DNA of 64,000 nucleotides from Jaapia argillacea MUCL 33604 (Eukaryota > Basidiomycota > Agaricomycetes > Jaapiales > Jaapiaceae), in assembly GCA_000697665.1 (NCBI GenBank), contig KL197747.1, forward strand, positions 230,719 through 294,718, written 5' to 3'. Shown in pieces: positions 9,561 to 61,998 of this stretch. Each line of letters starts with the position of its first letter. Position 1 is the first letter of the stretch. A program made the position numbers and the translations under genes. The notes beneath the pieces are model-generated. The model made no database searches. It was not told the origin of the DNA and was given only the letters and a program-made list of their open reading frames with translations.

Positions 9561-9603
9561 GTTTAGAGGGAAAGATAAGTCGTCGAAAAACGTTCTGTAT
9601 TTC

Positions 9604-15314: not shown

Positions 15315-17095
15315 TCAGGGTTGAGAAACATGGTGAACGAATACCTCATCCCGGAGCTTACGGAGCACCTCATCCGCCGTAGGACGATCCGAAGGTGTCT
15401 CCTTCCAGCACTGCTTCATCACGTCCCAAAGGGTCAGGGGGAGTGTTCGTCCGTACTTTCCTGCACCAGGGTACTGAGGTCGAGTTCCGGATACCACGGC
15501 GGCAGCAACCTGGATCTCGTGCTGATATTCGGGGAACGGAACCTGCCCGGTGTACAACTGTCGGATCGCGGATTAGATCAACCTATTTCTAGTGGAGTTC
15601 ATTGTCGAAGGGGACGAACCTCGAGTGCTACGTAACCGAATTGATACATGTCAGTTTCGAAACTTTGTTGGGCACATGTGGGAAAGTGAGTCTCTGGAGC
15701 CATCCATCGAACAGTCCCATATCCACCTGAACTACTGGGAGGGGTGTAGAGTTCCGACGAAGATGATGTAAAGAGAATTTTGAGGCCGAAGTCGCAAAGT
15801 CGAGCGTTGTATGCTCCGTCATTCTCTTCAACTAGAACATTGTTCTAGAACAAAATGGTAAGTCAACATGTAGACAATGAGACAACGTTGACACTGACCA
15901 CGGTGAGGTCGCCATGAATGATTCCTTCCCGGTGGAGATAGGCCAGACCATCCACAACTTCAACCAGCTGTTCGAGGCTCTCCACGTAAGATTCAGCTAA
16001 TGTGGGGTAGCGTCACTCACGAGTTGGTCAATGACCTTGCTTGGACGTTCAGCTCGACCGAAGTCGTGTGCATTCCCACCCTCCATCCACGGTGCAAGTA
16101 AATAGGGTATTGAATATTCCTTTTCTTGCCAGACGCCGTGGAATGGTAAGATAGATGGGTGGTCGATCTGTCGCCACAAAAGGGCCTCCTGGAATAGCAT
16201 CTAACACCACACATAGCGTGAGTGAGGCGATGAACGAAAATGATGCAACAAACAAGAAGATTCCCACTGTTTGGTTTTCGCGCTTCCTGCCAGTCGGAGT
16301 ATTCCGATTCTCGACGAAGATCCGAAATCGTTTGAAGGCGGTAACTCTTCCCAGGTAAGAGCCCTTGAAGATATCAGCATATTCACCTCCCCCTTCAGGA
16401 TCCCGGCCAGGAAGACGATCCACCTCCAGTTCCGGGATGAACAGTGACGGGGGTAATTCTCCGGAAGCCTTCGACAGGCTTATCAACAATCGAATACTAC
16501 GCCGACGCATGTTGCGAAGTTCTTGATCGGAAGCTGAGGGTAGGGTCGCGACAATTCGTTTCGTATCCCGCATCCAGTCAAGGAACTATGTGGGTCTCAG
16601 TATTGATTCGCGAACTGTGTGATCGGGAATGAGAACCTTTTGTAACGCATCCATGTAGGCTTTTGCGGCATCGCCTCTCAACTGACAAATATGTTCCCGC
16701 GCCTCCTTTGAACCCAGGATGGAGTTTAGCCACAAGGCGATCAAACCGTGGATCTCAGTGATAGGTCGACGTCGCCTCTGGTCGTAACCGGACCCGTGCG
16801 GTGGGACGACTGGGCCGGAGTATGGTTCGTCTGCACTAGGCATAGTACCCTGAATGAAGGTAGAATTCCTCCGTATCTCGTCCTGTTCCAATAATGATAC
16901 GTCGTCAAGGTTGTCTTGATACAGAAGGGGAGACTTGGAGGACCACAACTCGACACTTTCCAATAAAGTGGGTGACCGTTGCTTGCGAAGGCGTGCGTGT
17001 AATCGTGACTCGTCAGTTCCCGGCTGTGGGGTGGCAATTTGTGGAGCGATCCTGCCGACTGTTGTTGAATGGAAAACGTGAATTGTCAAATACAT
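15315..17095 (-). CDS. K3: TKL-like protein kinase with helical N-terminal domain
   Basis: Multi-exon minus-strand gene, closely related to K5 and K7. Order: SVELWSSKSPLLYQDNLDD; a helical domain ending CQLRGDAAKAYMDALQK at a phase-0 intron; a linker FLDWMRDTKRIVATLP with RRRSIRLLISLSKAS and LPPSLFIPE; a Gly loop EGGGEYADIFKGSYLG; Lys in AFKRFRIF; QEALLWRQIDHPSILPFHG; catalytic loop GIIHGDLT; LCDFGLKILF; RWMAPETHF; C-lobe TGQVPFPEYQHE and KYGRTLPLTLWDVMKQCW. The catalytic Lys, HGD Asp and DFG are present, so it should be active, probably on Ser/Thr. The start is unclear: the open frame reaches 17095, overlapping the end of G1, and a short upstream exon is possible. Confidence 0.8.
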
Positions 17096-24394: not shown

Positions 24395-25611
24395 ATGTAC
24401 ACCCATCGGCACGCGGATTCCTCTGACCTTGGCGACACTTCACACCCAGGCTTCCCAGGAGCTATGTCAATCTTTCCTAGAAAAGGTGGTGGCGGTCGCG
24501 GAAGTAGTCATTCGTCGGGTAGCAAGGGTGGGGGTTCGTCCTCCCATGTCCAGTTAGGGAGCCACACTGGAATGCCAAGTGGCAAGACCGTTTCCGCTTA
24601 TTCGGCAGGCGGGGGCAAAAGCTTCACGCTTGGTAGTTCTTCTCCGTTCAGTGGAAGATTGGCGGGGGGTGGAACGAGGGTACGTATGTTGCGACTTTTC
24701 CCTATTCGCACCACTGACTGGGGATGTTTTGTCTTTTTGTTATGCAGTCTCAAGTCTTTGGGAACTCACGATATGGAAGTGGCTATCCTTATGGCAGTTA
24801 TGGGACCTACATCGACGACCGACCACTGCCATACGTTTTCTACCCCGTCCCGATTTACCCTAACTACTACGGCTCAGACACGGTACATATCCTTATCCAT
24901 TCTAATCCCTTTCTTCGTTCTGATGTATCTTGATATCACCAGTATACAAACTTTAATGAAACCCAGCGTCCAGGCGGCAATATCACCATTGCAGTCCTCC
25001 GCGCTCCTTCGTTACCAAACACAACCGAGATCTACCGAATCGTAGGGGACCAACTCTCCACCTCGGCGGTCCTCGATGCCTTAGTAACCGATTGCAACGT
25101 TCAAAACACGACACTCTCACCTTTCAACGCGTCCGATGGAACGGATTCGTGGCCACTTCCCGAACAAATCGTTCAGTGGTATCGAGCCTCCTCTTTTGGC
25201 TTGTCCTTGGACTCGTATAACAACACCGCCGCTCTACCATCCAACATGCCTCCATCGAACGATTCGTTATCTCCACCACTGAGCGACGATACCCCCTTGC
25301 CCACCGATCTGAACACCACGTACCTCTCATGTCTAAACAAGACTATTGGAGCTTCAGTGCCACTAGTGGATCCACCTTACAAACCCAGCGCAGCCATGAT
25401 CGTCTTGTTCGTTTTCGCTGGCATTGTGATCCTTTGGTGTGCTGTTGCCGCCATTTATAATTTTGCCCTCGCCTGCGTTCCGCTGCTGGAGTTGATGGGT
25501 GATTTGTGGAGTGCGATAGATCATTGGTTGTGGAAGATAAGGGATAAGCATAGGAGGAGGCAATATTCGACTGTTGAGGAAACTGATTGGGAGGTGGGTG
25601 CCGGGTCGTAG
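24395..25611 (+). CDS. Gly-rich membrane glycoprotein, copy 2
   Basis: Predicted 362-residue protein from exons 24395-24679, 24748-24882 and 24943-25611. The middle exon is 135 bp, identical in length to copy 1. It shares SAYSAGGGKSFTLGSSSPFS, FGNSRYGSGYPYGSYGTY, PVPIYPNYYGSDT and QRPGGNITIAVLRAPS, plus about nine N-x-S/T sequons. One membrane segment lies at about 290-315 (AAMIVLFVFAGIVILWCAV). The tail after it is cytosolic-looking and basic, then acidic (DKHRRRQYSTVEETDWE), with a Tyr-containing stretch. It lacks the second C-terminal hydrophobic segment of copy 1, so the two tails have diverged. The ATG at 24395 is the first in frame. Function unknown; a surface protein is likely. Confidence 0.78.
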
Positions 25612-26123
25612 CCAGCAGTAGTGAAGGAAGAGAGCTTCGTGCCGGGGGGAAACGATATATCGAAGCTCCATCGGTGCTCCTATTTTCAAGAACAATTCAT
25701 TTACGAGACTACTTTTGAGGCACTGCCAATTGAATGTACTACAATATACACGGTTTTGCGGAGGTATGGGGACCATGTGACCTGTGACGCCGTGATGGTC
25801 ACGGTAGATGGTATACAAGACCCCGGACAAAGAAGAAATTGAAAACTCAGACGAAGAGCACAAACCTATATTTGCTCTGCTCAATCTTCTGGCTACCTCG
25901 AGTTGCACTGGAAAATCTCCGTTTCAGTTGCTCTCAAGATGTTCCCAAGTTGAGAACAAGAAGATGCCGTCCAATCGTCGTTAGGGCCCAGAAGTTTAAA
26001 TAGCTCCTCATCGGAATGACCGGGCGTCAATCTGGCTGGTTTCTCCTCTCCTTGTGCTCCCAACGTTCATCTGCATTACTTAATCCCTACCCTTGGAATC
26101 ATACCTACAAGAACAGTTCATCG
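25612..26123. other. Intergenic; left edge of a large duplication
   Basis: No gene supported. From about 25935 the sequence matches the region from about 32255 onward (shared CCCAAGTTGAGAACAAGA and GGGCGTCAATCTG), marking the left border of the K4-K5-HEM13 duplication. Confidence 0.6.
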
Positions 26124-29100
26124 ATGGCGGTAAACGGGTTCGCAATCAACATTGATAGCTGGCGCCCTCCTGCTCCTGACAACTTGAACACATCACACAC
26201 GAAACCTGGTGGACATGGATATACCAGTAAGGTACGGTTTCAACCAACTATTTCTTCGCGTAGGGACTTATGGTGTTTCTGAAGGAAGTTGCGAGAGCTC
26301 GGCTTGAGCGTTTAAGGGTGGTAATGGGGCGGGAACAACTGGATTACTAGTACATCCGTGAACTATTCAGCGGGGTGAACATTTTGCTAAGCACGTTCAT
26401 CCCAGCGTCATCCCGTCCCAGAATGCTCACGGAGTTGTGGATCCGAAAGACAGTAGGTTAGAGTATCTATCAGGGTGAGTACGCCCACGACTTCCAGCCA
26501 ATTCAAAGGTTCATTAGAGTACCAGATACGGGGGAGCTCTCAGTTTAGCAATCGTTTCGAAGATTGCCGCATATCTGTTCGTGGACCGTAAAGAACTCCT
26601 CGTTGCACAAGAGAAGGTGCAGCGGGGGGATTGGTTCATAATTCCTATTGACGCGGACAGATCGCCTGACTTTTGGGTGTCATGGCTGGCAGTAAGCATG
26701 GTCGTTCATGTCTTGTCCATCCTTGAAATTCATCAGCACTCAGACTCGCGTCGAGGAGGCCACTGTTGGGATCGACCCGCGTCTCATCTGGGACGATACA
26801 GCAGTCATGCTTAGGTCACTATTGGCTATCAAACAGTCCCATCTCAAAACTCCTACACAAAACCTCATTGATAACATTCGGGCGCAGAAATCTGGCAGAT
26901 CGAGCGCATCCCTTTCGGATCTCCCTACAAGTCTTGGTGAGTGGGCCAATGTCGTTGTTTTACTTAGCTCCTTCCAACCGAGCGTTGGTACAATTAGAAC
27001 CGTCTCGAAGGCTAGGCCAAGTACAAGATTGGATAAAGAAACAGCCCCCGTCCATTGTCGTCAACGCTGCTGGACGAATATCCAAAGAAAGGTCATCCGG
27101 AACTATTTTCGTTTCCCCAGAGGACATCTGTAAGCTCCAGGTCCATATCCTCCGTTTTCGTCACGTCTCAAACCATTCCGTCCATTGCCCAGCATTTCTC
27201 ATGCATCTGGAAGGCGCTCGTCACTTCCACGCTTACTTGTACATCGGGCTTTCCAACTGCTTGCTGTTCATGGGTGAAATGCATGAAAAAGTTGATGACA
27301 ATCTCAGAAAGCACCTGGAAACGATGGAAGTCGAAATCAGACCGTACAATGACTTTTACATGTTTCTGAGGAGCCGGGAGTGGGGAGCGGGAAAGGTGAG
27401 TCTATCGCCCGTATTCAACTTCCTTGCACCACTTGCTTATCTCGAGAGCCATTTGCTAGATCCTCATATCCCCTCGCACAACGCATATCGTTGTTTTGCT
27501 CCTCACGAATGGGGATACACAATGGTACTCCCTCGCGCCGTCCTTCGTTGACCATATTAGGTCTGTGGAGCACAGTGTTGAGGAGAGCGTCCTGGTCTGG
27601 TTGAAATATCATGATTCGTTGTTCAAGGAAAACCCTCTCGACGCACATTTGGTCGGGGAAATCATTACTCAGGACGCTACTTCGCTCCTCTTCCGCAATG
27701 CAGAGCAATCATCTGTGAGTACTGGACTGGTTGAAACGGACGATAACGATCCATCGACTTGGACTTCCGTTCGCCCCATGCTCTTGACTTGGCTACAATA
27801 CATCGTCGCATCTCATGATGCATGCCACCAAGTTTGCCGGCTTACGGGGCAACTTGCGGATGACTTTGTGGAGGCCTTGCTGAAGGTTGGTCATGTTCTA
27901 TCTAGATCGGGAAAACATCTCAGTTGATTTGTTGTTGAAAAGGTTATTGTATGGATCAATACTACCTCACATTTCCATTGGCAGTTCCGTTCGTTCAGTC
28001 CTCAAGATGTGCGCACCCTGCGCAGACGGACTCGCCGACTCCTGATGGACTCGGTCAAGATTTCTGAACGCATGCCCTTGTCCTTATTCGTGGACAAAGA
28101 CACCGTTGACCACGACGAGCCCCCTGAGCCTGTTGGTGGTGGAATATTCGCCGAGATGTTCAAAGGAACTTATGAGGGAAAGCCAGTTGTGATGAAGAGG
28201 TTTCGTTGCTTCCTCTCCCCAGAGAATGATCGAGAGACTCAAGCATCACGTCGAGTATGGCCACTGGCATGGCATTTACGCTTGACGTATCGCTGACCTT
28301 CACCTGTAGATGTTTTTCCGAGAAACCCTGGTTTGGCGCCAGGTAGGTTTTGTTCACACCAATTATAACCTTCTATAATGCTCAGACCGCGCAGCTTGAT
28401 CATCGGTTCATACTTCCCATGTGGGGTATCTGGTCTGAACGACCAGAGACTGTCCCGTACATGATCCTACCTTGGATGAAGCGTGGCAATGCAAGGGACT
28501 ATACACGAGCTCCGATATCGAGGCAAGAAGTTGACAGGCTGGTGAGCGGCCGCCGTTCACGTTGCAGTTGTCTCTAATCTATTCTTGAAGCTCTTGGAGA
28601 TCACAGAGGGGTTGATTTATCTGCACGGTGAAGGCATTATCCATGGCGATCTCTGTGGAGTTAGTGCTCCATTCAGAACGTCGTCAGTTGACTGATATCC
28701 GTATTGAAGACGAACATCCTCATCGACGACGAATACCACGTCCAACTGTGTGGTTTTGAACTGGTATCCTTATTCGCGGATCCAACATCGAAACCGTATC
28801 TCCACGACAGTCGTAAGGCAGGGGCGTGGATGGCTCCCGAGTTGATCAGGTCCATTCCCGCCGTTTGCTCACTTTTAGGGACGGACGCAGCAGGCCCTTC
28901 AAAGTCAACTGATATATATGCTTTCGGGGTTGTGGCTTGGGAGGTGAGGTTCTCCGACTTTCCGTGTCGTCAATCCAGCCTCTTACCACCAGCACAGCTA
29001 TACAGTGGAAAAGTCCCTTTCGCTGGCCTGACGGAGCATGACATATGCACCGGAGTATTATCCGGTGAGCTGGTCCTGGAGGATCCGGGAGTAGGAGATT

Positions 29101-30819
29101 TTGGCAGGAGCATGGGCCATGGCTTGTGGGCTCTTGCTCAGCTATGCCTGGACTGCACTTCTTCTAGCAGACCCACTGCAGCTAAGCTGAGCGAACGGCT
29201 GACGGCGCTTTTTTGCTACGAGTCGTGGCCCTCCAAGTCTCGCTATCTTTATCAAGAGAATCTTGACGACCTATCTTCATCGGAACGGGATGAGATACAT
29301 AGGAACTCTACGTCCCTCTATCAGAATGCTATGTCGAGTGGGGCCTCACTACAATACGGCCAAGTTGTCCCGGTGGACGGGTCTGGTTACGACCAGAGGC
29401 CTCGTCTCTCCACCGCCGAGATTCATGCTTTGATTGTCGTGTGGCTGGCATCCATCCTAGGTTCAAAGGAGTCCCAGGAACAGATATGCCAGTTGAGAGG
29501 CGATGCTGCAAAAGCCTATATGGATGCGTTACAAAAGGTTCTCGCTCCTGATCCCACACTCCATGGATCAATACTGATATTCACATAGTTCCTCGACTGG
29601 ATGCGGGATCCGAGGCGAATCGTCGCGATTCTACCTGCAGCTTCCGATCGAGAACTTCGCGATATACGTCGACGCAGCATTCGATTGTTGATCAGTCTCT
29701 CGAAGTCTTCCACTGAACTACCACCATCACTCTTCATCCCGCGAGTGGATCTTCTCCCTAGCAGCCATCCTGCTGTGGGTGGTGGATTCGCTGACATCTT
29801 CACGGGTGTTTACCTTGGAAGGGTTACTGGTTTCAAACGCATGCGGGTCTTCATCGATAATCAGCGTATGAAGCATGTAGCACAAAAGGTGGAACGCTTT
29901 CTTTCAAATAGTCATATCCGTTTATCACCTCACTCACACTACGCACTGCGCCAGATGCTGCTCCAGGAGGTCCTCGTATGGCGACAGATCGACCACCCCT
30001 CTATCTTACCATTCGACGGTGTCTGGCGAGAAAGTGATGACTCGATTCCCTACTTGCTCACACCTTGGATGGCGCATGGGAACGCTCACAGCTTCGCTCA
30101 GGCTGAACATCCAGGCCAGGTCATTGACCGACTGGTAAGTGGTGCTATCACCTACCTTTCTTACGCTTATTTCTATAATGAACCTCGAACAATAGTTGAT
30201 TGAAGTTGTCGAGGGTCTGGCCTATCTCCACCGGGAAGAAATTAGTCATGGCGACCTCACCGGGGTCAGTATCAAGATCGTCTCCCCGTCGACATGTCGA
30301 CTTACCATTTTTGTTCTAGCAAAATGTTCTGATTGAGGAGAGCGACGGGGAATACCACGCCCGACTATGCGACTTTGGCCTAGCAATTCTCTTCAAGTTG
30401 CCGTCTTCTCTACTCTACTGTCCTTCCAGCAGCGGAGGTGACCAATTCGGAAATATTCGATGGATGGCGCCAGAAACTCACTATCCCCAACTTGCCAAAC
30501 CAAGTTTTGAAACTGACATATATCAATTCGCATGTGTCGCACTTGAGGTTCGTTCCCTCCGACCATGAACTCCACTAGAAATAGGAGGATCTAATCCACA
30601 GTCTGGTAGTTGTACACCGGGCAGGTTCCGTTCCCAGAGCTACGCGATATCCAGGTTCCTAGCGTCGTGGTATCCGGAGCTCGACCACGGTACCCTGGTG
30701 CAGGACAGTACGGACGCACACTCCCGCAGACCCTTTGGGGCGTGATGGAGCAGTGCTGGGAGCAGACACCTTCGGATCGCCCCACAGCCCTTGACGTGCT
30801 CAAAATGCTCCAGATTTAA
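26124..30819 (+). CDS. K4-K5: fused tandem kinase (pseudokinase + kinase)
   Basis: One continuous exon chain encodes two kinase modules. Module 1 (K4) exons include 26124-26231, 26371-26474, 26526-26691, 26744-26936, 26998-27129, 27193-27395, 27460-27885, 27943-28254, 28310-28342, 28386-28541, 28591-28659 and 28710-28943. All phases agree. It has KPVVMKRFRCF and IIHGDLCG, but its DFG is GFE (LCGFELVSLF), so it is probably a weak or dead kinase. Exon 28998-29537 runs without a stop from the K4 C-lobe (SSRPTAAKLSERLTAL) into the N-terminal helical domain of module 2 (LYQENLDDLSSSERDE, LRGDAAKAYMDALQK). Module 2 (K5) keeps GFADIFTGVYLG, FKRMRVF, SHGDLTG, LCDFGLAILF and RWMAPET and looks active. 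The equivalents K6 and K7 are separate genes, so the fusion followed loss of the K4 stop and the intergenic DNA at about 29215. Confidence 0.8.
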
Positions 30820-31107
30820 GTGTTCATTCGATGTTTCTGAGGCCTGAGCTTCACAATAACATCTTGCACCTGTCTTTCTTGCTCGCCCACCGTCTGTACC
30901 CTTTACCCTATACCATTTACCTTCTTGGAAGTCTCCCGATGTTGTTGTACCGTCGCTACCCTTATGGATTTGATTACTCGAAACTCACACGATATCTCGA
31001 CGGTGTTGGCCAGAGTGAGGGATGTATTCATAGTCAAATAGAAATACAACAATAAATTGAATTCTTCTTCCGATCCGCGATCTGAACGAACGAGGACTCA
31101 TCCACTT

Positions 31108-32125
<1,018 letters not shown>

Positions 32126-32444
32126 CGGACCCAAATTGACTTGGACGTTGTAATTCTGTCGACCGACAGCCGTATTCCCAGATTTGTTTCGGCATCTCTC
32201 AGAATCATACACAGAATTTAAACGCGAGCAATGTTCCGTGCATGGATGTGTCCTTTGTCCCCAAGTTGAGAACAAGATGAGTGGTCATCCCAGCCAATCG
32301 TCTTCAGTCCGCAGTAAGTCAGCTCCTTGTTGATATCACTGGGCGTCAATCTGATGGATTCCTCCTTCGATTGCGAGTTTCCTCGCGCTCCCAACGCTCA
32401 TTCGTATAGGCCTCCACCCTTGAGCCCACAAGAAAAGTTTATCA

Positions 32445-35400
32445 ATGGCAGCGAACGACTTCACGATCCATGTTAGCCCTCCTCCCCCCGACAACCTGAA
32501 CGAATCTCGCGTGATACCCGTTGGACAAGGAGATGTCACTGAGGTACGATTTAAAACAGCTATTTCTTCTTATATGGACTCACGGTGTTTCTGAAGGAAG
32601 TTGCAAGAGCTCGGCTTGCACGTTTAAGAGAAGTAATGACGAAGGAACAACTGGATTACTAGTACATTCGTGAACTATTCTACGAGATCGACAACACTCT
32701 GCTGAGACTCCGCTTTCAACCCAGTATCATCCCGTCCCAAAATGCTCACGGAGTTGCGGATCTGAACGATAGCAGGTTAGAGTATATATCAGGGTGAGTA
32801 CGCCCACGACTTCCAGCCAATTCAAAGGCTCATTAGAGTACCAGATACGCGGGATCTCTCAGTTTAGCAGTCGTTTCGAAGATTGCTGCGTATCTGTTCG
32901 TCGACCGTAAAGAACTCCTCGTTGCTCAAGAGAAGGTGCAGCGGGGGCATTGGTTCGTGATTCCTGTTGACGTGGACAAGTCGCCTGACTTTTGGGTGTC
33001 GTGGCTTGCAGTAAGTATAGTCGTTCACGTCTTTTCCATCCTCGTAACTCATCGGCACTCAGACTCGCACCGAGAAGGCCACTGTTGGGATCGACCCTCG
33101 TCTTATCTGGGACGATACCGCAGTCATGCTTCGGTCACTACTGGCTATCAAACAGTCCCAGCTCAAGACTCCTACACAAAACCTCATTGATAAAATTTGG
33201 GCGGAGAAATCAGGCAGATCGAGCGGAGCATCGTTCCCGGATCTCCCCACAAGCCTCCGTAAGTGGACCAATATCGTCGTTGTACTTAGTTCTTCTAAAT
33301 GAGAGTTGGCACAATTAGATCCGTCTCGAAGGATAGGCCAAGTACAAGATTGGATAAAGAAACAACCACCGTCTACTATTGTCAACACTGATGGGCGAAT
33401 GTCCACGGAAAGGCCATCCGGAACTGTTCTTGTTTCCCCAGAGGACATATGTAAGCTCTAGGTCCATATTCGCCATCGCCTTACGTCTCAAGCCATTCCA
33501 TTTATCACCCAGCATTTCTCATGCATCTGGAAGGCGCCTGCCACTTCCAAGCTTACTTATACATTGGACTATCCCAATGCTTCCTATTCATGGGTGAAAG
33601 CGACGAAAGCGTCGATGAAAGAGTCAGCAAGTTCCTGGAAGCAATCAAAATCAAAATCAGACCGTACAAAGACTTTTACACGTTTTTGAGGAGGCGGGAG
33701 TGGGGAGCGGGAAAGGCAAGTGCATCGCCCGTCATCGTATTCAACTTCTTTGCTCCACTTGCTTACTCGGAGAACCACGTTCTAGATCCTCATATCCTCT
33801 CGCACAACACATGCCACTGTGTTATTCCTCACGAAGGGGGATACGCGATGTTACACTCTCGCTCCCTCGCTCATCGACCATATCAAGTCTGTGGAACACA
33901 GTGTCGAGGAGAGTGTCCTGCTCTGGTTGAAATATCATGATTCGTTGTTTAAGGAAAGCCCTCTCGACGCACACTCGGTCGGGGAAATCATTGCTCAGGA
34001 TGCTACGTCACTCCTGTTTCGTAATGAAGAGCAATCGCCTGCGAACACCACACTGGTCGAACTGGACGACAATGATCCATCGGCTTGGACTTCCGTTCGC
34101 ACCAAGCTTTTGACTTGGCTCCAGCACATCGTCGAATCTCATGACGCATGCCACCAAGTTTGCCGACTTACGGGGCAACTTGCGGATAACTTTGCGGAGG
34201 CTTTGCTGAAGGTTGGTCATGTTCTGGATCGTGAAAACGTCTCAGTTGAGAATTGATTTGTTTTTGAAAAGGTTGTTGTATGGATCAATACCACCTCTCA
34301 TTTCCATCGGAAATTCCCTTGGTTAACTCCTGAAGATGTGCGCACCCTCCGCAGACGCACACGCCGGCTCCTGATGAACTTAGTCAAGGCTTCTGAACGC
34401 TTGCCCCCATCCTTGTTCCTAGGAAAAAATACTGTTGTCGACGACGGACGCACTGATCCCGTGGGTGGTGGGGGGTTCGCTGATATATTCAAGGGAACTT
34501 ATGAGGGAAAGCCAGTTGCAATGAAGCGGTTCCGCCGCTTCCTCCCCCTAGCCATTGATCGAAAGACTCAAGCATCACGACGAGTATGGCCACTGTCATT
34601 AAATTTGCGCCTGCCAGATCACTGACCTTCACTTGTAGATGTTTTTACAAGAAGCCCTTGTCTGGCGTCAGGTAAGGTATACCCACACTGGCCACAACCT
34701 TCCACAATGCTCAGATCGACACAGCTTGACCATCGTTTTATACTCCCCATGTGGGGTATCTGGTCTGAACGACCAGAGACTGTCCCGTACATGATTCTGC
34801 CTTGGATGAAGCGTGGGAATGCAATGGACTATACCCAAGCTCGAATATCAAGGCAGGAAGTTGATAGGCTGGTGAGCGGTCACCATTCACGTTGCGGTGG
34901 TTTCTAATCTACTATTCAAGCTCTTGGAGATCACAGAGGGGTTGATTTATTTGCACGGTGAAGACATTATCCATGGTGATCTCTGTGGAGTTCGTGTTCC
35001 ATTTCAGAACGTCTTCAATTCACTGATATCCGTATTGAAGAGGAATATACTCATCGATGACGAATACCACGTCCAACTCTGTGACTTTGGACTAGTCTCT
35101 TTATTTGCGGATCCGACATCGAAACTCTATCTCCCCAACAGCCGTCGGGCAGGCGGAACGATGGCATGGATGGCGCCCGAGTTGTTCAGGTCCACTCCCA
35201 CTGTGGGCTCAAATTTACCGACGGACGTAGCGAGCCCGTCGAAACCAACTGATATCTATGCCTTCGGGGTTGTGGTTTGGGAGGTGAGGTCCTGCAATCA
35301 CTCGTGTCATCGATCGAACCGCTTACCGAGAGCAATAGCTATACAGCGGAAAGGTTCCTTTCGACGGCGTGATGGAGTATGACATACGCACCAGAGTATC

Positions 35401-35569
35401 CTCCGGCGAGCTGATCTTGGAGAATCCGGGAGTAGGGGATTTTGGCAGGAGAATGGGCTCTGGCTTGTGGGGCCTTGCTCAACTTTGCTTGGGTCGCACC
35501 CCGTCAAGCAGACCCAATGCAGCTGAGCTCAGCAAACAACTGAAGGCTCTTCAGGATCCTGTCGTCTAG
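32445..35569 (+). CDS. K6: TKL-like protein kinase, long N-terminus
   Basis: Same exon plan as K4. N-terminal region: PPPPDNLNESRVIPVGQGD; NAHGVADLNDSRLEYISG; GHWFVIPVDVDKSPDFWVSW; IDPRLIWDDTAVMLRSLL; AYLYIGLSQCFLFMGES; FYTFLRRREWGAGK; a helical CHQVCRLTGQLADNFAEALL. Then the kinase domain: GGGGFADIFKGTYEGK, VAMKRFRRF, ALVWRQ, LDHRFILPMWGIWSE, IIHGDLCG, LCDFGLVSLF, AWMAPELF, GKVPFDGVMEYD, and a C-terminus KALQDPVV. All catalytic residues are present. The intron after EWGAGK starts with GC rather than GT (AAAG, then gcaagt); K4 has GT there. At about 34672 the donor may be shifted 5 bp downstream (gtatac) to keep frame. It is probably a functional cytosolic Ser/Thr kinase. Confidence 0.8.
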
Positions 35570-49035: not shown

Positions 49036-51255
49036 TTACAAAGCTTGTAGACTTTGGAGGATATTGGAAGCTTCGGGCCTGTCTGACGCGGTATGGTGCA
49101 TGCAATGAAGAAGAAGCGCCCATAATCCACGACTCATCATCCTTCCATAGGCTCCAGCATTGGGGTTTTCAAGTCTACGACCCAACAACACTCCGGAGTA
49201 GATCTCGGGGTCTCTCTTGCCAGCGAAGGGTATCTGTCCGCTATAGAGCTATCTTTTGGGTTAGTGAGGATCCTGTGAAAGTAATAACGAACTGTCCTAC
49301 CTCATAACCGACTACCCCGAAAGCATACACGTCGCTACGGTATGTTGGCTGAGAGGAGTCGGCTCCTAAAACCGGGCCGGAGTCCAGCAGCTCGGGAGCC
49401 ATCCATGCGAGACTCCCTTGCGTCATACGACTGGTAGCCGAATATAGTTGGGAATTGGGAGCAGTGAAGAGGGAGGCCAGACCGAAATCAGAGAGCTTTG
49501 CATGACAATTCTCGTCAATGAGGATGTTCCTCTGTAGACTGGGTTTAGCAAGGTCATCTTTTAAGGAGAACAAAGACTGACTCCACAGAGATCCCCGTGA
49601 ATGATGTCTTCCGCGTGGAGATAAATGAGGCCCTCAGCGATTTCACGAAGCTATGGACACGAATGAGATAGACAAAGGTTGGGATGCAAGGTCTTACCAT
49701 TCGATCCACCATTTGACTAGTAACAGTTACATCTTGTGTATAATTCATCACATTTCCATTTTCCATCCAAGGGAGAATCATATAAGGGACCAATTCTGGT
49801 GATTGGGACCAGATGCCCCACAATGGAACAATCGAGTCATGTTTTAGCTGGCACCAAACTAATACTTGCTGAGCAAACATCTGCAGCAGAACCATTAGTG
49901 ATGAAGAAAAGTAGAATGTTGCAACATGTGTTGTTACCTGCTGATGTTTCACCAGCTCACGAGTTTGAGTAAGGAAGAACCGTACCCTCTTCATTGCAAC
50001 TGCCTTTCCACCCCATGACCCTTTGAATATGTCGGCAAAGCCGCCACCTGCTATGGGATCCTTTCCGTAGTTGTAAATGTCTTTGATAAACAAAGAAGGA
50101 GGTAGCTGCTGTGACATTTTTGCCAGATTGATAAGAAGATGGCGGGTGCGCCTGCATAATGTCTGGATGTCCTTGTCGGAGGCTAGTGGAAAGAGGCATT
50201 TGAAGTTGGTGGTATTGCTGGTCCAGTCCAGAACCTTTGTTATCAGTGAGTAGCAGGCTTAGTTATATAATGTAGAAAGTTAAACAATCAGAGGTAAAAA
50301 CCTTAATAAGTGCTTCTTCACATTTCACAGCATCATTTCCTTGTATCTGACAGACTTGTCGACATATGTCTTGTGAGGTTACAATATTTTGTAGCCATAG
50401 CAAGATGAAGGCAAGGATTGCTTTCCAGACTGAGCCTATAGAGCCAGCCTGAAAATTGAACCCCATTGGAAGCTCTAGTATATGGGTCTTGGCATAAGAG
50501 ATAGCATCATGAATGACTGCTGCTCTATCTTGAAGTGATACCCTGGTGCCATAAGAATCAAAAAGATGATGGTAGTGTTGCAGCCACCACTGCATGGAAA
50601 GCTTTTGATGCTCCTGAATGGTTCTCATACTGTTCACAAAAGAGGGGGTAATTGTGTACCACTGAGCCCATTGATCTGTTAATAATTTTGTGATGAAAGT
50701 AGAGGGCTGAGATATGAGAATCTAAAATATGGGAATAGTCTGGATTCACTTTTACTTGAGTAGTCAGAAACTTCTTACCTTTCCCATTCCCCACTGGCGT
50801 TTAGACAAGAACTGATTGAGTTTACCATACATCTGCAGTGAGATGTTCAACACATCAAGATGACTTGTAAGGGCTTTCTCAGCTGTTCCATCAAGAAATA
50901 GACAGCATTGTTGGAGTCCAACGTAGAAGCAGGATTCAAGTGGGAGTTGTCTACCAAGGCAGAGGATATAATCTAGAAAATTCAAAAGAATGAAAAATAT
51001 TATTACACCCTCTATACACAACAACTTACCAATGTCTTGACAAACTGTAATTAGGACTCCTACATGGGACTCAATTGACAGATTGCCATCACTGTGGAAC
51101 ACAATTAAGGGTGGCTGTTTCTCTATCCAGGCCTGAAGTTGACTTAGTTGCCAATGTGATTCTATGACAATGGTGAGTGTGGTGAAATCTGTGATAATAG
51201 ATACCCACCAGCAACATCAGGTGGTTGGACCAATATAGACACAGGAGGAGAGCTG
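49036..51255 (-). CDS. K9: TKL-like protein kinase, AT-rich
   Basis: The minus-strand exons give NSAISSPPVSILVQPPDVA, SHWQLSQLQAWIEKQPP, CFYVGLQQCCLFLDG and NQFLSKRQWGMGK (matching the K6 block ending REWGAGK). Then come QWYTITPSFVNSMRTI, a helical ICRQVCQIQGNDAVKCEEAL, VLDWTSNTTNFKCLFPL and LPPSLFIKDI. The kinase domain reads GGGFADIFKGSWGG, VAMKRVRFF, VLVWCQLKHDSIVPLWG, IIHGDLCG, LSDFGLASLF, AWMAPELL, SGQIPFAGKRDPE and ASNILQSLQAL. Lys, HGD and DFG are present, so it may be active. No own start ATG was found. The first exon begins at a TAG acceptor right at the end of K10, so it may be the second half of a joint K10-K9 gene. Introns and codons are much richer in A and T than in K3-K7. Confidence 0.65.
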
Positions 51256-51261
51256 ATGGCA

Positions 51262-53359
51262 CTATTCTTGCTGGATTGATTCTAGATATGAAAGAAATTC
51301 GTCATATAAGTTCCACTTTGCATAGAAACAAATGGTACATCCCTCAATCTTTCTTATACCATTAATAACAGCCAATATTGATGGTCTATCACACTGCTCT
51401 TGTGACCAACATGTAACAATCAACCTCCACATATCATCTTCCAAACATAAACCATGGCAGTCAACTGTGGATGGTTGAGAAGGTCGGCACCCTTTAACAA
51501 CCTCTGAAGCAACTGAAACATCTTGTAGAATGTTGAAAAATGGAGGGTGCCTTGTGAAAACCTGTTGATACAGAGATAAGTGATATGTTAGATAAGTGAT
51601 ATGTTAATAAAGGAGCCATAGAGATAATACCTCATAACAAGTACATCCAAATGCATAAATATCTGTTTCTTGACATGTTTGATAGGTGCCCAAGGGAGAA
51701 TGATGAAGCTCTGGAGCCATCCACCTAGTTGACCCACCAGGATTCTGTGTGGTAAATGCCCCTTTTGTGGCATAATCAAATACAGCCAACCCAAAATCTG
51801 CAAGGTGAGGTCAAAATTTATTATCAATCAAAATGTTTCTCTAAAAATGTGTCAGAACAGTTACAGTTCTGAAAAAAAAAAGTTCTCATACTGCACACAA
51901 GTCTCCATGAATAATGTTCTCATGATGAAGATACTTAAGACCTTCTGCCACCCAACGTAGCTAAGTTCTTCAATGAGTAATCAGACTACTACTCCAACAC
52001 AAATACACACCAGTTTTATGATGTCTTTGACTGCCAACCCCCCTTCGCTTACATAGTCAAGCAAAGTTCCATGATCCATCCAAGGTGAGAGAATACACAG
52101 AGAGTAAGAGGCTGATGCAGGTGCAGATGCAAATAGTTCACAATTAACACCAAAACAAGGCATAATGAAGGGGTGGCATAATTGTCTTCAAATGAGTACT
52201 TCTCGGCAAAGAATCTAGGAGAAACTTAACAATCAGATACCACTCAGGCCGGTGAGTTTGATGTAACAAGAACCTTGATTAACTTTGCCCGATCCTGTGT
52301 TTTGGGGATCAAATGGATTCTCAGCCTTTTGATTGCCACTTTTTGCTGACCGATCATGCCGGTGTAGACATCAGCAAAGCCTCCTCCGTGGACGGGATCA
52401 GCTTCCCGCAGCGTCAATTCGCGGATGAAAAGACTGCTGGGTAGATGACCTGACGCCTCCGATAGTTTCACCAACAAGCGGTGAGTCATTTGGGTGAAAT
52501 CAATATAAAATGGAGAGTTGACGCTGAGGGGGAGCTCGATATATATTTGGGACGAGGATTTGAAAGAATCAAGGATCTGGTCAAGCGGACATCACGTGCA
52601 GGCTATGAGTCGGAAGGGAACAAACCCACCCGTTGCAGCATATCAAGTACATGTTGGATATCTTCGGCTTCAAGGCAATTAGTACCCGCCGGCAAGCTAC
52701 ATATGGCTGAAGTTTGCAACCGGGCAACTATGCGAACGTCGTCGGCCACTAGAGCGGAGAGAAGTTTGCGATTGGGCTGTGTCATCGTGTGCCCAAGCAT
52801 CTATCACGTTATAAGCCAAGATGCCAGCATTGCCGCGGACACGCGAGATAGGGTGACACGTACGGATAGCAGCTCCGACCGAATATGATCATTCTTCGCA
52901 AGTGCGATAGGCGAATCGTCAATGGCTTGGCACTCGGAGAACCATCGGCGCAGATTGTTTCTGAAATACATCAGCACACAAGGAAACGAGAAAAAAAAGG
53001 CGGTTACATGGCGGTCTCGTCAATGTTGGAAGACGCGATTTCTTCGAGGATGGCAAGGAGGAGATACTGGGCGAGATCGATTATGATCAGCACGATCGAG
53101 TGGTCAACACAAGTAGATAACGCACCTGATTCAAATTGGGCTGCTCGTTCAGAACTCTGCATGCCGAAAGGCCGGCAGCGTTCACCAGGTGGTTCCAGCG
53201 GTCAGTGCCAACGACATCAGGAAGGGAGGTAGCCACGGTTTCCACGAAAACTTGGGTCGGATCAGCAGGGAGTTGCTTGGATCCCAATCTTCTAAGTGAG
53301 TCCAGAGCTGAACGAGGAGATTTGTTCTCGGCGAGAGGCTGTTGCACTGTTTCCGTCAT
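51262..53359 (-). pseudogene. K10: kinase with nonsense codons
   Basis: The start at 53359 opens with TETVQQPLAENKSPRSALDS, then PTQVFVETVATSLPDVVGTD and RWNHLVNAAGLSACRVLNEQ. The kinase part has HGGGFADVYTGMIGQ, VAIKRLRIH, MDHGTLLDYVSEGG, NIIHGDLC-like, ADFGLAVFDYA, RWMAPELHHS and DDMWRLIVTCWSQEQ. Compared with its duplicate K11, the Trp of VLIWRQL is a TGA (52188-52190) and the Arg of NKLRPQ is a TGA (51811-51813). Both kinase lobes are otherwise well kept, so the loss looks recent. Base composition changes sharply at about 52250: the N-terminal exons are GC-richer and the rest AT-rich. Confidence 0.75.
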
Positions 53360-55460
53360 GGATGAAAAGTTGCTTTGTCGAGTGTTCGAGTTGGTGGGTG
53401 GAAAAGCGATGGTGGGAGATAGAATAGAGCGACGCCGCACAGCAATCACGGAAGGACGCCGGCCTTGCCGGAAGCCAAATCCACCGGCGCCTGCAATCGA
53501 GATAAGCAACCGTGGACAAGCGCCCGAGAGAGACAGATCGAAGATTCGGAATGGAGCTCATTGTAGGGTTCTTCCCTCCTTTTCCCGATCCAGAATGGAA
53601 GCATTCCTGCGCAGACGTTTACGGGATACAACCCATCGATGTCCTAACCACACAGAGAGGAGAGCCTTGAACCAGATCCCTCCTTCAACCTGACGAAGCT
53701 CTGGGATCACTGGTGTGAATTTCGACACGAGGCTGGTCTCCTAACAGTTGGTCGTTCGGGAATTGGGGGAAGTATTTAATTCCAAAGGAGAGGTAAGTGC
53801 TACCCCTGATGAGCCGTAGAACGCTCGCGAGAACCTGCGGCACGTTGCACACCTAGATCAAACCCACACCAGCTACCCATCCCCCTTTATAAGCTCCTCC
53901 GTCTACCCGACACTTCCAGAGAGCCATCGACCTCGGCGTTCCAGCGCCTTACCAAAGACATCCTCCTCCCACTCCTCACAACCTTCTCGCTCAGCCATTC
54001 CCCCTCCCGTATTCGCTGAGTGTCTCAATCTCCAACTCTTCTCCGAGACAGTTCCTTCCCCCGCTCGTCGCTACGAAAGTCGTCTTGCGCTTCTGTGAGA
54101 ATCGGGCCTCCCGCCGTCCATCGCTGCGATATCCATCCTTCAGCTCCTCGCAGAGCCAGTATTCTCCCAGCCCCGGCATACAGCCTCGTCCCGCGACGAC
54201 GCTCCTCGCCCGACTCTGCTCGATCCAGACACCTCTCGCCCCTGATCTCGTTCAGCATCCCCACCTAATCCTTGGGTTCACATTCCTCCCTCTCCCGCTC
54301 AACCTTCTCCTCCCTCCCTTCGCACCACACTTCCTTTCCTCCCCTTCTCTTCCCCACGACGGCCAAACTACGACACATCCGGAAGGAAGAGTAGAACCAA
54401 GGTAGCTTCACACCGGGACTATCAGGCTGGTCGGGATTGGCTTCGTCGAGTGGATGGAGGGTATCGGGGCGAGAGGGATGAATAGGACTACGAATTGAAG
54501 CGCGAAACAAGATTGAAAGGGAGCTAAGAATTTAGAATGTCAATAGAGTTAAGAGAGACATAGTCAGGAACAGCGAAAGATAGTGGCAGAAAAAAAATGA
54601 GACAGTGTGAGACAGTGTGTGTATGCGCATCGATCGTAAGCATAAATTAGATGGCGTGGAGCCAAGAGGTGGAAGGAAATGGGACACGACAAGAAAGACT
54701 GATCGAGGAAAGCAGAGGGAGTAGAGGAGAAGGTAGAGACGACGCGACGTACAGCTGTAAAGCCCGAGCAACTAATTTGGATACTGTGGCCGATATACAT
54801 CGTCGCACGATCAGTGCTCGGTCGCGGGTGTCTGTTACTCGGATTAGTTACGTCTCGGCACGCAAAAATAACTGTAGGACAGGCGGATAGAACACACGTA
54901 CCCGAAACGAAATAATGAATCCAATCCTCCCCCACTTATTTGCGAGAACGGTGTTGTACACGCAAGTAGAAGGGCTGGTGTACGCGATAGGTCGACGTCG
55001 TGGATCGCCCACGCTTGATGGTATCAGAGCTGATGGGTTCATGTTAGAATGATCGTGATTGAATGGGGTTGTGAAGCAAGAAAGTGCGATGTGGGAGGAG
55101 CGGAAGAAGGCAAGGGGAAGGAGCTCGACATACCTAAGTGTCAACGTTAACGTGGACGAGAACAGGAAAGGCCTGTTCAGTACAGCGGCACTATATCCTT
55201 CGTACTTGGTCTGCGCTTCGATTCGTCCTCGTGCTCCTCTACCACTCCTCGCTTGTTCCCCACCAGCTTTTCCAACTCCACGCGAAGGAATCAAGAGCTA
55301 CGTGGAGAGGTGGATTGGGGTAAATCGACGCAAGGGAAGGAGTGAGAAGTACCTGCGTAGCAAGGTCGACGTGGGCGATCACAGCCTTTTGCGCATGGGA
55401 CTCTGAAGGACAGGTTGGCGAACATGTGTCCAGTGCTACTGGCGCGGTTATGAGCATTAG
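53360..55460. repeat. L segment, copy 2
   Basis: Second copy of the L segment, directly upstream of K10. It matches copy 1 from about 53600 to 55400, including the GGAAGGAAGAGTAGAACCAAGG landmark at about 54380 and ACGTACAGCTGTAAAGCCCG at about 54750. The minus-strand frame corresponding to KVFKLAIRALQL in copy 1 is shifted here, so this copy is probably non-coding. Confidence 0.7.
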
Positions 55461-57672: not shown

Positions 57673-59920
57673 CTATCTTTCTACTTCTCCTTCTCCCTCG
57701 ACATCTACCTTCATCGTCTCACTCTCGGCTAGATCCCTCTTCCCTTCGCCTCCTTCCTCCAGTCTCGTCTCATCCATGGTGTCGTGCCACCGAGTTGACC
57801 CTTCACGCAAACGACGCAAGACAACAGCTGCGACAGGCCTATCTGCAGGGTTTTGGGCCCAACATTGGCCAATGATCTCCCAAAGTTCGTCAGGCATATC
57901 CCGACCATACTGTCCACAGCCAGGATGACGTGGCCGATGTCCACGGGCAAGGTTCAACACAACTGCCATGTCATTGGATTTATAGTAGAACGGCACCCTC
58001 CCGCTATAGAGCTGGGTGGGATCTCGTGATTAGTAGTCCCAGGATATGCAAGTGAACAGGGTAATGACAGACTTCGAGAGCAACACAACCAAAGGAATAG
58101 ATGTCACTGGCACAAGAGGGAAGACAGTTGGGACAGTTGGCAGAGTTAACTTCGTACAACAATAATTCTGGGGCCATCCAGCGAATATACCCTTGAGGGA
58201 CGAGCTCTTGATCGATACCTCGGAGCAGGAACGAGGCGTCACTGAAACCAGATAGGAGTGCTTGATGCTGTCCGTTCTTTTGGTCAATCAAAATTTTACT
58301 CTACTCAGACATCTCCATGTCAGCATAGTCCAACTTGGGAAGTGATGTGCACAAACCCCTCTCAGGTGTCCATGAATGATCCCCTTTCTATGGAGATAAA
58401 ATAGTCCTTCCATGATCTGGATCAACTACAAGATAAATGTGAGACAAATATAAGCATAAGATAGACTTGAAATCACAATGCTGTCAATAATCTTGGGTGA
58501 AACACTTGAATTTTGGGTGAAGCAATTGATGTCTCCATTTGCTATCCAAGGGGATACTAGGCAGGGGAAAGATTCCTTCTGAGTACTCTGACACCAAATG
58601 CCATAGAGTGGTAAAATTGATGGGTGTTTAAGCTGCCACCAAAGTATTGATTCACATGGAAATCTCTATTTCATAGAGATAAATGAGGATTCATCAGTAA
58701 ACCCCAAAATAACCAGGCAAGATAAGGCTTACTCTTTGTGTAGAGATTCTTTGCACCCCGTTCAAATGGAAACCATATGTATCTTTGACTGCGACATCTT
58801 CTCCTAAGTAAACTCCTTTGTAGATGTAGGCATAGCCGCCACCACCAATTATACACATTTCAGATACAGAATCTAGAGGTAGATAGAGAGATGGAGGCAG
58901 CTCTTGTGATGACACAGATAGGCAAACAAGCAGTTGAATGCAATGTTGATGCAGAGCTTGCATTTCAACAGCAGAGCCTGCCACAAAATCACCAAACTCC
59001 TGTCTGGATTTATCCATGGAATCAATAAACTAGGTAGTGAATAAGAATATAGAGGATTTTACAATAGAAGACTGTGTGCACCTTCTGGAGAATATCAAGG
59101 TAAAGCTTTGCATCAGCACCCTGGAGTGATAGAATGTATTGAAGAGCCTTTTCTGTATCACTGGGAAGTTGGATTTTGCTACCTGCAGTGAAAGTGTGAA
59201 TCCACTGCAAGATCAAATACTTGGAGTGTTCCTCAGTAACTCTCAAGTTCTCCACAATAGAGGAAGTAACTGTGTGCCAACAAGCCCACTTTTCTGAGAG
59301 AAGCCCTTTTACTTGAGCAAAAGCCTGAGAGGATAGAAAGATCTAAACAGTAGAGTTGATGAGAAGTTGAATGTAGCTCAATGATTTCATAAATATAAGA
59401 CAGTCAGCAAAGACAGGACTTACTTTTCCTTTGCCCCATTGCCGCTCATGCAAGAACTGTTTGAGTTCTATATATTTGGTAATAGTAACATTTAATGCCT
59501 CCAAATGATGCACTAGGCTTTTATCCAGTTCTGCATCTAGAAACAGGAAGCCTTGGTGAGATCCAATATAAAGATGGGCCTCAGAAAGATGATGGACATC
59601 TAGATTCAACAAATAACCTATGAGATCTAGTATTAACTTACACTCTTTGTTGAGGAATATACTTAGATGACAACCTACATATAGTTGAGGAACCAGAAAC
59701 AAGAGTACCTGAGTGCACTTCCCATGTCAATATCCCACTGGGATGCAGGACCATGGAGTAAGGCTGCGCCTGAGTCCAGAATCGTAGTTGACTCAATCGC
59801 CAATGTGCCTCTGCTGCTTTTATAAGTAGCCTGAAAAATGAAGAGCTAGAAACTAACCAGTGATGTTAACTAATGGTAGTGCCTCTGTCAAGGAATCTGA
59901 AGTCTTAGCACCACCCTCCC
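57673..59920 (-). CDS. K12: TKL-like pseudokinase, AT-rich
   Basis: Exons on the minus strand: NQTREGGAKTSDSLTEALPL; AEAHWRLSQLRFWTQAQP; LSEAHLYIGSHQGFLFLDA; KQFLHERQWGKGK (the K6/K9 block); a short helical domain (LQYILSLQGADAKLYLDILQ); QELPPSLYLPLDS; Gly loop GGGGYAYIYKGVYLG; Lys in VAVKDTYGF; catalytic loop GIIHGHLRG; LLSGFSDASF; RWMAPELLL; DIYSFGCVALE; and QYGRDMPDELWEIIGQCWAQ with an acidic tail. HRD is HGH, so the catalytic Asp is lost. DFG is GFS. ATP may still bind, but phosphotransfer is unlikely. There is no own start ATG; the first exon begins right after the K11 stop, in the same frame. Confidence 0.65.
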
Positions 59921-59930
59921 TGGTTTGATT

Positions 59931-61998
59931 CTACAAAACTTTATAAGCTAGATGGTTCTCAGCAGTGAAAATAAAGTCACTTTCCTCAATATGCCTCATA
60001 CTCCTGATAATAGATGTCATTGATGGCCGAGCAAGCTGATTTTGTGACCAACAGCTGGTGATTACATTCCACAAATCATTTGTCATGTCTAAACCACCAC
60101 AGTCTTCTATAGATGGTCTTGTAGGTCGGCGTCCATCCACAATCATTGAAGCTACAACAGCATCATGGAGGGTCTTGAAGAAAGGTATGTGTTTTGTAAA
60201 AACCTAAAGTAGGAAGAGAAGAGGTCATTCCAGATATAATGGAGGACAAGAAGGTGAGACCTCATAACAAGTGCATCCATATGCAAAGACATCTGTTTCA
60301 CAACACCTCCTGTAGGTGTTTAGGTGATAGTCGTGAAGCTCTGGAGCCATCCACCTGACTGAGCCACCACTATGCTGAGTTGTAAATGCCCCTTTTGTAG
60401 CATAATCAAACACAGCCAGCCCAAAGTCGGTAATTTGAGGTCTCAATTTATTGTCAATCAAAACATTTCTCTAACAAGATATCAGAACAACCATAATCCT
60501 AACAAAAGAAAGGTCTGTACCGCACACAAGTCCCCATGAATGATGTTCTCATCATGAAGATACTTCAGTCCATCCGCAACCCGGCGCAGCTTGAGCTCTC
60601 AAATTAGCAATCCAATAGTTACTACTCAGGGAGAAAAACAAACCAATTTTATAACCCCCCCGGCAGTCAAACCCCCCTCACTAACATAGTCAGACAAAGT
60701 TCCATGATCCATCCATGGAGAGACTATACAGAGAGACTGAGAGGCAGATGCAGATGATCCAAACAGTTCGCAGTTAACACCAAAACAAGGTAAGATGAAT
60801 CGGTGCGATAATTGTCTCCAAATAAGCACCTCCCGTAAAAGGATCTACAACAATAATCAATCAGGGTGCAGTTGAGATGGAGATAGGAAATGGAATTAAT
60901 AATTACCTGTACCAACTTTCCCGGGTCATGACTCTTGGGAATGATATGGGTCCTCAACCTTTTGATCGCGACTTTGCGCTGACCCATCATACCAGTGAAG
61001 ACATCGGCGAAGCCTCCTCCCCTTCCAGCATAGGTTTCTTCACAAGTCAATTCACTTATGAAAAGACTGCCGGGGAGTTGACCTGAAACCTCTGATAGCT
61101 TCAGCAGTAGACGATGAGTCGATCGGGTGAAGCCAATGTAGAAGGGAGAGTCAACACTGAGGGGGAGCTCGATATATATTTTGGACGAGGTTTTGAAAGA
61201 GTCGAGAATCTGGTGGAGCATAAGCCACAAGCAGCTCAGGGGAAATGGACAGACCCACCCGTTGCAACACATCAAGTACCCGTTGAACATCCTTGGCTTC
61301 AAGGCCATTGGCACCCTCCGGCGTGGTACAAATAGCCGAAGTTTGCAACCGAGCAACGATGCGGACATCATCGGCCACTAGAGCCGAGAAGAGGTTGTGA
61401 TTGGGCTGCGTTGCCGTGTGTCCAAGAATCTATCGCATTATCAGCCAAAATGCCAGTGTGGACGCGAACGCGCGAGATGGGTTGACACGTACGGAGAGTA
61501 GCTCTGACCGAACATCGTCATTCTTCACAATGGCAGTGGGCAAATCATCAATAACTTGGTACTCCGAGAACCATCGGTGAAGATTTTCACTGAAACACCT
61601 CAGCAGGCTATCGGGAAACGAGAATAAAGGGCAGTCACGTGATACACTTGTCAATGTTGGAAAATACGATGTCTTCGAGGATGGCAAGGAAGAAATACTG
61701 GGAGAGATCAATGACGATCAGCGCGATCGAGAGGTAGGCGATAACACACCTGATGTAACTTGGGCTGCTCGTTCAGAACTCTGCACGTCGAAAGGTTTGC
61801 AGCGTTCACCAGGTGGTTCCAGCGATCGGTGCCAACAACATCGGGAAGCCAGGTGGCCACAGTTTCCAGGAAAACTTGGGTGGGATCGCCGGGGAGCTGT
61901 TTGGATTGCAATCCTTGAAGCGAGTCCAGAGTAAAGCGTGCAAATGTACCCTCGGCGGGAGGCATTGGTCCTTTTTCCGTCATAGATGAGATATCCAT
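59931..61998 (-). CDS. K11: TKL-like protein kinase, AT-rich
   Basis: The ATG at 61998 (or 61982) opens with DISSMTEKGPMPPAEG. Next come PTQVFLETVATWLPDVVGTD, RWNHLVNAANLSTCRVLNEQ, FFLAILEDIVFSNIDK, HRWFSEYQVIDDLPTAIVKN and a helical block AKDVQRVLDVLQR. Kinase: LPGSLFISELT, RGGGFADVFTGMMGQ, VAIKRLRTH, EVLIWRQLSHRFILPCFG, MDHGTLSDYVSEGG, DENIIHGDLCA, ITDFGLAVFDYA, VRWMAPELHD, ETDVFAYGCTCYE and NDLWNVITSCWSQNQ. All catalytic residues are kept, unlike the near-duplicate K10. The stop is TAG at 59931-59933, and K12 continues in frame directly after it. The two may be joined by a splice I could not resolve. Confidence 0.75.

Follow-up and report, generated by a model that had tools for sequence, protein, structure and literature searches.

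The fused gene and its unfused relatives

The stretch of DNA analyzed here, a window of 64,000 nucleotides from the basidiomycete Jaapia argillacea MUCL 33604 (contig KL197747.1, positions 230,719 to 294,718), holds an array of kinase genes interspersed with broken copies of other genes. The short GT-AG introns and the TK/TKL-type kinases of the array suggest a mushroom-type fungus, and the genome size (43.7 Mb) also suggests a fungal source. Within it, the gene that we call K4K5 (26124..30819; positions are those of the window, and features lie on the + strand unless noted) carries two kinase domains in a single open reading frame. The spliced model rebuilt from the DNA is open over 19 exons and 1229 residues, each of its 18 introns is of the GT-AG type and 45-66 nt long, and Pfam lists two kinase stretches in the product. 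The two parts meet in a junction exon of 540 nt (28998..29537), open and in phase 0 at both ends, which runs from the C-lobe of the first kinase (K4) into the N-terminal part of the second (K5). The initial annotation had proposed an in-frame fusion through this exon, which the open model bears out; its statement that the upstream exons keep phase also stands, although 13 of them, and not twelve, precede the junction exon, and the protein exceeds the predicted 1100-1200 residues. Used as a query against the genome (43.7 Mb in 95 contigs; all genome-wide counts refer to this one genome), the junction exon gave 21 matches, and both halves were spanned by K4K5 alone in a search that is blind to any fusion with an intron placed at the junction. 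That K4K5 is one gene fusion at the DNA level is well supported, and the locus most likely encodes a single polypeptide of 1229 residues.

Spliced models of the paralogs of both halves describe separate genes, as had been annotated. K6, the unfused paralog of module 1 (32445..35569), encodes 798 residues and has one GC-AG intron; K7, the unfused paralog of module 2 (36326..38133), encodes 485 residues and has its own start exon. The expected stop and gap of ~750 bp are found between them: the K6 stop at 35569 and the K7 ATG at 36326 are 756 bp apart, and the intergenic stretch (35570..36325) has no counterpart in K4K5. The GC-AG intron of K6 (33716-33785) has the donor GCAAGT, and K4 has GTGAGT at that place.

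Self-BLAST aligned 25940-29210 with 32256-35551 (81% identity), 29219-30847 with 36507-38164 (78%) and 31005-32046 with 38361-39423 (90%). The last pair belongs to genes that we take to encode coproporphyrinogen oxidase: an intact gene in the source block (38467..39540, - strand) and a truncated copy (31005..32046, - strand) that marks the end of the duplicated block, is without its 5' end, has gaps of 1 and 14 nt and holds a longest frame of 183 residues versus 357 in the intact gene. Homology of the K6 type stops at 29210 and homology of the K7 type begins at 29219, leaving a junction scar of 8 bp (29211..29218) where the K6-K7 block has 955 bp; what K4K5 lacks is the K6-type stop, the intergenic spacer together with any promoter of K7, and the 5' part of K7 itself, namely exon 1, intron 1 and 29 nt from the start of exon 2. 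Judged by these alignments, the K4-K5-oxidase copy is a tandem duplicate of the K6-K7-coproporphyrinogen oxidase block.

In the kinase tree, K4 groups with K6 (support 1.00) and K5 groups with K7 and K3 (0.997), K3 being a third kinase of the module 2 type (15348..16975, - strand), an inverted copy that adjoins another coproporphyrinogen oxidase fragment. The K4 and K5 kinases are on different branches, and the gene is therefore a fusion of unlike paralogs, not the product of an internal duplication. The fused state is most likely the derived one, since other kinases of the K4 type (A-type) end at the kinase and genes of the K5 type (B-type) have no kinase upstream. All eight A-type kinases tested besides K4 (L021, L022, L024-L028 and G8) stop 0-11 residues past the aligned kinase, in a test that left out L023, whose kinase is cut short, and G9; none of four B-type genes, picked from 64 matches and read by eye, has a kinase in the preceding 400 bp. 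It is these other family members that make a loss of sequence here, rather than a gain in K6/K7, the most likely course.

Divergence between the blocks amounts to 0.215 substitutions per site in A introns and 0.291 in B introns, and the NG86 dS is 0.41-0.49. A duplication of this depth is not young, so the suggestion in the initial annotation that K4K5 could be "recently born" is not borne out; the fusion itself may be of any age within that span. Dating the block by its coproporphyrinogen oxidase copy was abandoned, as the uneven divergence suggests gene conversion: of seven 150-bp bins, six show a difference of 4-9% to the intact gene, and in the last, at one end, it reaches 25%. Over most of its length this copy is closer to the intact gene than the neighboring kinases are to each other.

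The aminopeptidase P head

Ahead of its kinases, K4K5 has a region corresponding to domains I and II of aminopeptidase P (exons 2-8, 26285..27600, residues ~37-361), recognized by Pfam, by a PDB match and by shared introns. The initial annotation, right on the fusion, was silent on this head, as it was on the block duplication and on a second, probable tandem kinase, G9 (see below). With the K4 part taken alone, the Pfam domains Creatinase_N (1.9e-8) and Creatinase_N_2 (1.7e-9) are both above cut-off. Residues 31-353 of K6 match residues 5-326 of human XPNPEP1 (PDB 3ctz; E 2.8e-10), and the K6 head also matches APP-1 of C. elegans (E 1e-7). K4K5 and K6 thus share domains I and II with aminopeptidase P (XPNPEP1, family M24B) but differ from it in what follows: the catalytic M24 domain is not listed by Pfam in either K4K5 or K6, and a kinase is found instead.

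The genome's own aminopeptidase P gene (L029, at C16) has the same residue as K6 at 137 of 357 aligned positions and continues into M24 matches. Six introns of the K6 head (after residues 54, 77, 135, 200, 244 and 312) are common to the two genes in phase and place, with an alignment offset of 2 and 4 residues in two of the six. The genes differ in a K6 intron that follows residue 33 and in L029 introns that map to 17, 22 and 355, at the ends of the alignment. There are 11 M24 matches in the genome, and only the two at C16 adjoin a head match. Most likely, the head was copied from the peptidase gene together with its introns, a kinase replacing the catalytic domain.

One choice in the K4K5 model concerns this region. 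A version with twelve upstream exons, in which K4 exon 2 started at 26371, was dropped for one with two exons at 26285-26349 and 26406-26474. The chosen model recovers an aminopeptidase P motif, has the better aminopeptidase P homology and places a 7-nt length difference from K6 within an intron; the intron between 26349 and 26406 has its counterpart, after K6 residue 54, in the paralogs and in the peptidase gene. The Creatinase_N match, which had an E-value of 0.00068 and lay below cut-off with the old model and the whole protein, rose to the value given above with the new model and the K4 part alone.

The head is found across a kinase family. Spliced alignment covered 12 distinct places in the genome, eight with head domains I and II plus a kinase, two with head domain II plus a kinase (G8 and G9) and one being the peptidase itself; at the twelfth, at 8-13 kb of the window, spliced alignment gave no credible full-length member. 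Including K4 and K6, ten kinase genes with the full head are present in the genome; L023 is decayed, and L021 and L028 each have one flagged frameshift in spliced alignment. On the - strand at 10091-10462 there is a weak match to the aminopeptidase P head (E 4.7e-4), beside or within a repeat (9506-10055 versus 17006-17624) that sits between kinases. Among open-licence papers we found neither a fusion of aminopeptidase P with a kinase nor a fungal tandem kinase of the K4K5 kind, and the part of PMC8778642 available to us contains nothing on a combination of aminopeptidase P with a kinase.

Kinase modules, constraint and alternative readings

The order noted in the initial annotation, a degenerate module followed by an intact one, is confirmed by an alignment of 15 kinase modules. 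Module 1 (28129..29210) is a Pfam kinase that looks like a pseudokinase, with GFE in place of DFG at 28752-28760; module 2 (29772..30816), also recognized by Pfam, keeps the Gly loop, Lys, HGD, Asn, DFG and APE motifs. K4K5 thus joins one domain without the full catalytic set to another that has it. HGD instead of HRD is the norm of the family, being found in 13 of the 15 modules (L028 has HRD and G9b has HGH), and the Asp of DFG is absent only from K4 and from G9b, which combines GFS with its HGH. The best Pfam match of the kinases is PK_Tyr_Ser-Thr, and the best PDB matches of the K4 kinase are RIPK1, EGFR, MLK4 and MET.

Losses at conserved positions are concentrated in the kinase of K4. 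Among 91 kinase columns invariant in the outgroups (at least four of five outgroups present), K4 differs at 14 and K6 at six, the six being shared, so that eight losses are specific to K4 and none to K6. Six of these eight affect the Gly loop, the VAxK motif or DFG. Among 50 invariant head columns, K4 and K6 each differ at eight. By this alignment module 1 has lost residues of the adenosine triphosphate (ATP) site, and it would be without catalysis.

Rates of change give a similar division. In pairwise comparison, K4/K6 has an omega of 0.295 and K5/K7 one of 0.361. The K4 branch has 0.54 (95% confidence interval [CI] 0.38-0.80) when L021 is the outgroup and 0.43 (0.29-0.61) when L023 is used; K5 has 0.49 (95% CI 0.35-0.68) with K3 as outgroup, and K7 has 0.41 (0.27-0.61). 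Set against silent changes, amino-acid changes are more frequent in the K4 kinase part than in that of K6 for three of the five outgroups (p 0.0026, 0.016 and 0.0014), the difference not being significant with G8 (p 0.077) or L022 (p 0.38). The aminopeptidase head shows no difference between K4 and K6 with any of the five (p 0.39-1.0); for the linker ahead of the kinase, one of the five (L024, p 0.036) indicates that K4 is looser than K6. The head and K5 thus stayed under constraint along the branch, and the K4 kinase probably drifted, mainly in the ATP site.

We consider it probable that K4K5 is a derived fusion gene, formed by block duplication and loss of a spacer, whose most likely product is one protein with a regulatory pseudokinase. 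On this explanation, a block of an A gene (kinase with aminopeptidase P head), a B gene (kinase) and a coproporphyrinogen oxidase gene would have been duplicated in tandem, and one copy would then have lost ~950 bp between A and B, bringing the two into one frame. The protein would consist of aminopeptidase P domains I and II, a linker, a pseudokinase, a second linker and an intact-looking kinase. Its head may bind a ligand or partner, and module 1 may serve as an allosteric or docking pseudokinase that controls module 2, comparable to the arrangement in Gcn2.

Several points weigh against this explanation. The tree places K5 with K3 rather than with K7, if weakly (support 0.59), which does not fit a simple block story; since K5, K7 and K3 are nearly equidistant, that story rests on gene order. 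The enrichment of K4-specific losses in the ATP-site motifs (hypergeometric p 0.0015, 92 columns) was calculated with a motif set picked after the losses had been seen. With L023 as outgroup, the K4 kinase is not looser than that of K6 (0.21 versus 0.16; 136 kinase codons, the first half of the domain), and with L021 the omega of the K4 kinase part is 0.59 with a CI (0.32-1.25) that includes 1, so that constraint is not shown there. A fusion within the last ~8% of the branch would look the same, and the constraint could mostly predate the fusion.

It is unlikely that the locus makes two proteins, with K4 cut short by early polyadenylation or intron retention and K5 arising from an internal promoter and ATG. 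K5 is indeed constrained about as much as K7, as expected of a free kinase, and in-frame ATGs occur at 29331 (the first of the K5 part) and at 29520. The spacer, start exon and intron 1 of the K7 type, however, have no counterpart at K4K5, no stop lies between the two modules, and an internal start would trim an N-terminal part that K5, K7 and K3 have in common.

We find it likewise improbable that the fusion is a young dead end now turning into a pseudogene. Such a fate would resemble that of the broken copies in the array and the family (the coproporphyrinogen oxidase at 31.0-32.0 kb, module 1 of G8, and L023 elsewhere), and the K4 kinase branch of the tree is longer than that of K6 (0.245 versus 0.110). 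Against this, neutral simulation at intron rates gives an expectation of ~35 stops or frameshifts over the two branches, and none is seen, the 19 exons and 18 introns of K4K5 being free of disabling changes; K5 and the head, moreover, are still constrained over the branch.

We would give a still smaller chance to an active module 1, in which GFE is tolerated and the fusion has two working kinases. The ATP-anchoring Lys, the Asp of HGD and the Asn are all retained in module 1, yet the Asp of DFG, one Gly of the loop and the Ala of VAxK are among its losses, and its activation segment is three residues shorter than that of K6. An assembly artefact at the junction is hardly credible: the block is repeated, and repeats are open to misjoining, but the copies are ~20% divergent and both K4 and K5 carry private changes up to the junction.

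A second, probable tandem kinase of the array and comparison with known systems

K4K5 is probably not the only tandem kinase in the window. G9 (57673..61998, - strand; 17 exons, 1093 residues; a spliced model that is open and has GT-AG introns) consists of a kinase, aminopeptidase P domain II, a linker and a degenerate kinase with HGH and GFS. Pfam lists two kinase stretches in it and a weak domain II match (Creatinase_N_2, E 0.00046, below cut-off). The modules are joined only through a 170-nt intron; if this is left unspliced, the first kinase meets a stop after 16 more residues, and the stretch from that stop to the next exon contains no ATG. Past the last kinase there are 43 residues and no further kinase. 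With K6 as query, the stretch shows two frameshifts and one stop, and the hand-built model has none. G8 (49045..53371, - strand; spliced alignment) is a decayed paralog: along the path homologous to G9, module 1 contains two stops and the junction a third, the second kinase being open. Tandem kinases may therefore have formed repeatedly in this array, G9 being weaker evidence than K4K5. Two AT-rich islands, at 49.5-52.5 kb and 58.0-61.0 kb (GC 0.38-0.46 per 500 bp versus 0.47-0.59 around them), extend over the middle of each of G8 and G9 and take in exons as well, which gives the two genes the look of mosaics.

Elsewhere in the array, self-BLAST pairs 12020-13185 with 19188-20414, copies of a gene that is presumably ArfGAP-like. 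A third coproporphyrinogen oxidase fragment lies at 14340-15098, and tandem genes for small Gly-rich proteins, 70% identical in DNA, lie at 22723-23535 and 24565-25376 (both + strand); by eye, both proteins have a hydrophobic segment near the C-terminus.

In JAK kinases the pseudokinase JH2 precedes the active kinase JH1, and K4K5 likewise has its pseudokinase ahead of its kinase; unlike in JAK, Pfam lists neither a FERM nor an SH2 domain in K4K5, and no receptor partner is known for it. Plant tandem kinase-pseudokinases (TKPs) resemble K4K5 in having two kinase domains in tandem, one of them degenerate. According to PMC6170490, 40 of 92 TKPs come from gene fusion, conservation is among the lowest at D184 and at G52 in the Gly loop, WTK1/Yr15 has a kinase followed by a pseudokinase, and none of the 92 has further conserved domains. 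D184 corresponds to the Asp of DFG. K4K5 differs in its reversed order, in its aminopeptidase P head, with two Creatinase domains above cut-off, and in having no known immune role. Both comparisons, with JAK and with the plant proteins, are analogies.

Fungi are already known to pair a pseudokinase with a kinase, since yeast Gcn2, a protein found from yeast to mammals, has both in one chain; as described in PMC4014428, its pseudokinase contacts and activates the kinase directly, and tRNA is sensed by a domain related to HisRS. Gcn2 and K4K5 both combine a pseudokinase and a kinase with a regulatory (in K4K5, putatively so) domain related to an enzyme. In K4K5 this enzyme-derived domain is aminopeptidase P and is N-terminal, and Pfam lists neither an RWD nor a HisRS-related domain in it. 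Gcn2 is the best working model for K4K5, in which module 1 and the head would, by analogy, regulate module 2. As to the kinases themselves, K4K5 resembles the fungal FslK/TKL kinases in being of TK/TKL type, going by its best Pfam and PDB matches; these are described as TK- or TKL-related, with lineage-specific expansions, and as expanded in Agaricomycetes (PMC3937382), and the main text of that paper does not use the terms tandem, N-terminal or domain architecture.

There is a precedent for a relative of aminopeptidase P in a regulatory protein: PMC10377022 reports a probably inactive aminopeptidase-P-related domain in PID-5 of C. elegans, and that Trp477 of human aminopeptidase P is vital for dimerization. 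The PID-5 dimer contacts discussed there include parts of the catalytic domain, which Pfam does not list in K4K5. A simple pairing of the K4K5 head with the peptidase is less likely, because Trp477 lies outside the part that is kept (5-326).

K4K5 probably shows how a pseudokinase-kinase protein was born, and both of its source genes have unfused relatives only ~6 kb away. Since these relatives are so near, the steps of duplicating the block, losing the spacer and losing the ATP site can be read and tested singly. Its most remarkable feature appears to be one that it shares with its family: an aminopeptidase P head on a whole family of kinases would parallel the HisRS-related domain of Gcn2, part of a metabolic enzyme being reused on a kinase. 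More speculatively, and as an idea to which we give only a modest chance, this fungal lineage may have a kinase family that uses a stripped aminopeptidase P as a sensor head and has repeatedly made tandem pseudokinase-kinases, in K4K5 and independently in G9; these might be fast-evolving proteins that, like the tandem-kinase immunity proteins of plants, serve as receptors or decoys, here for signals from peptides, nonself or stress.

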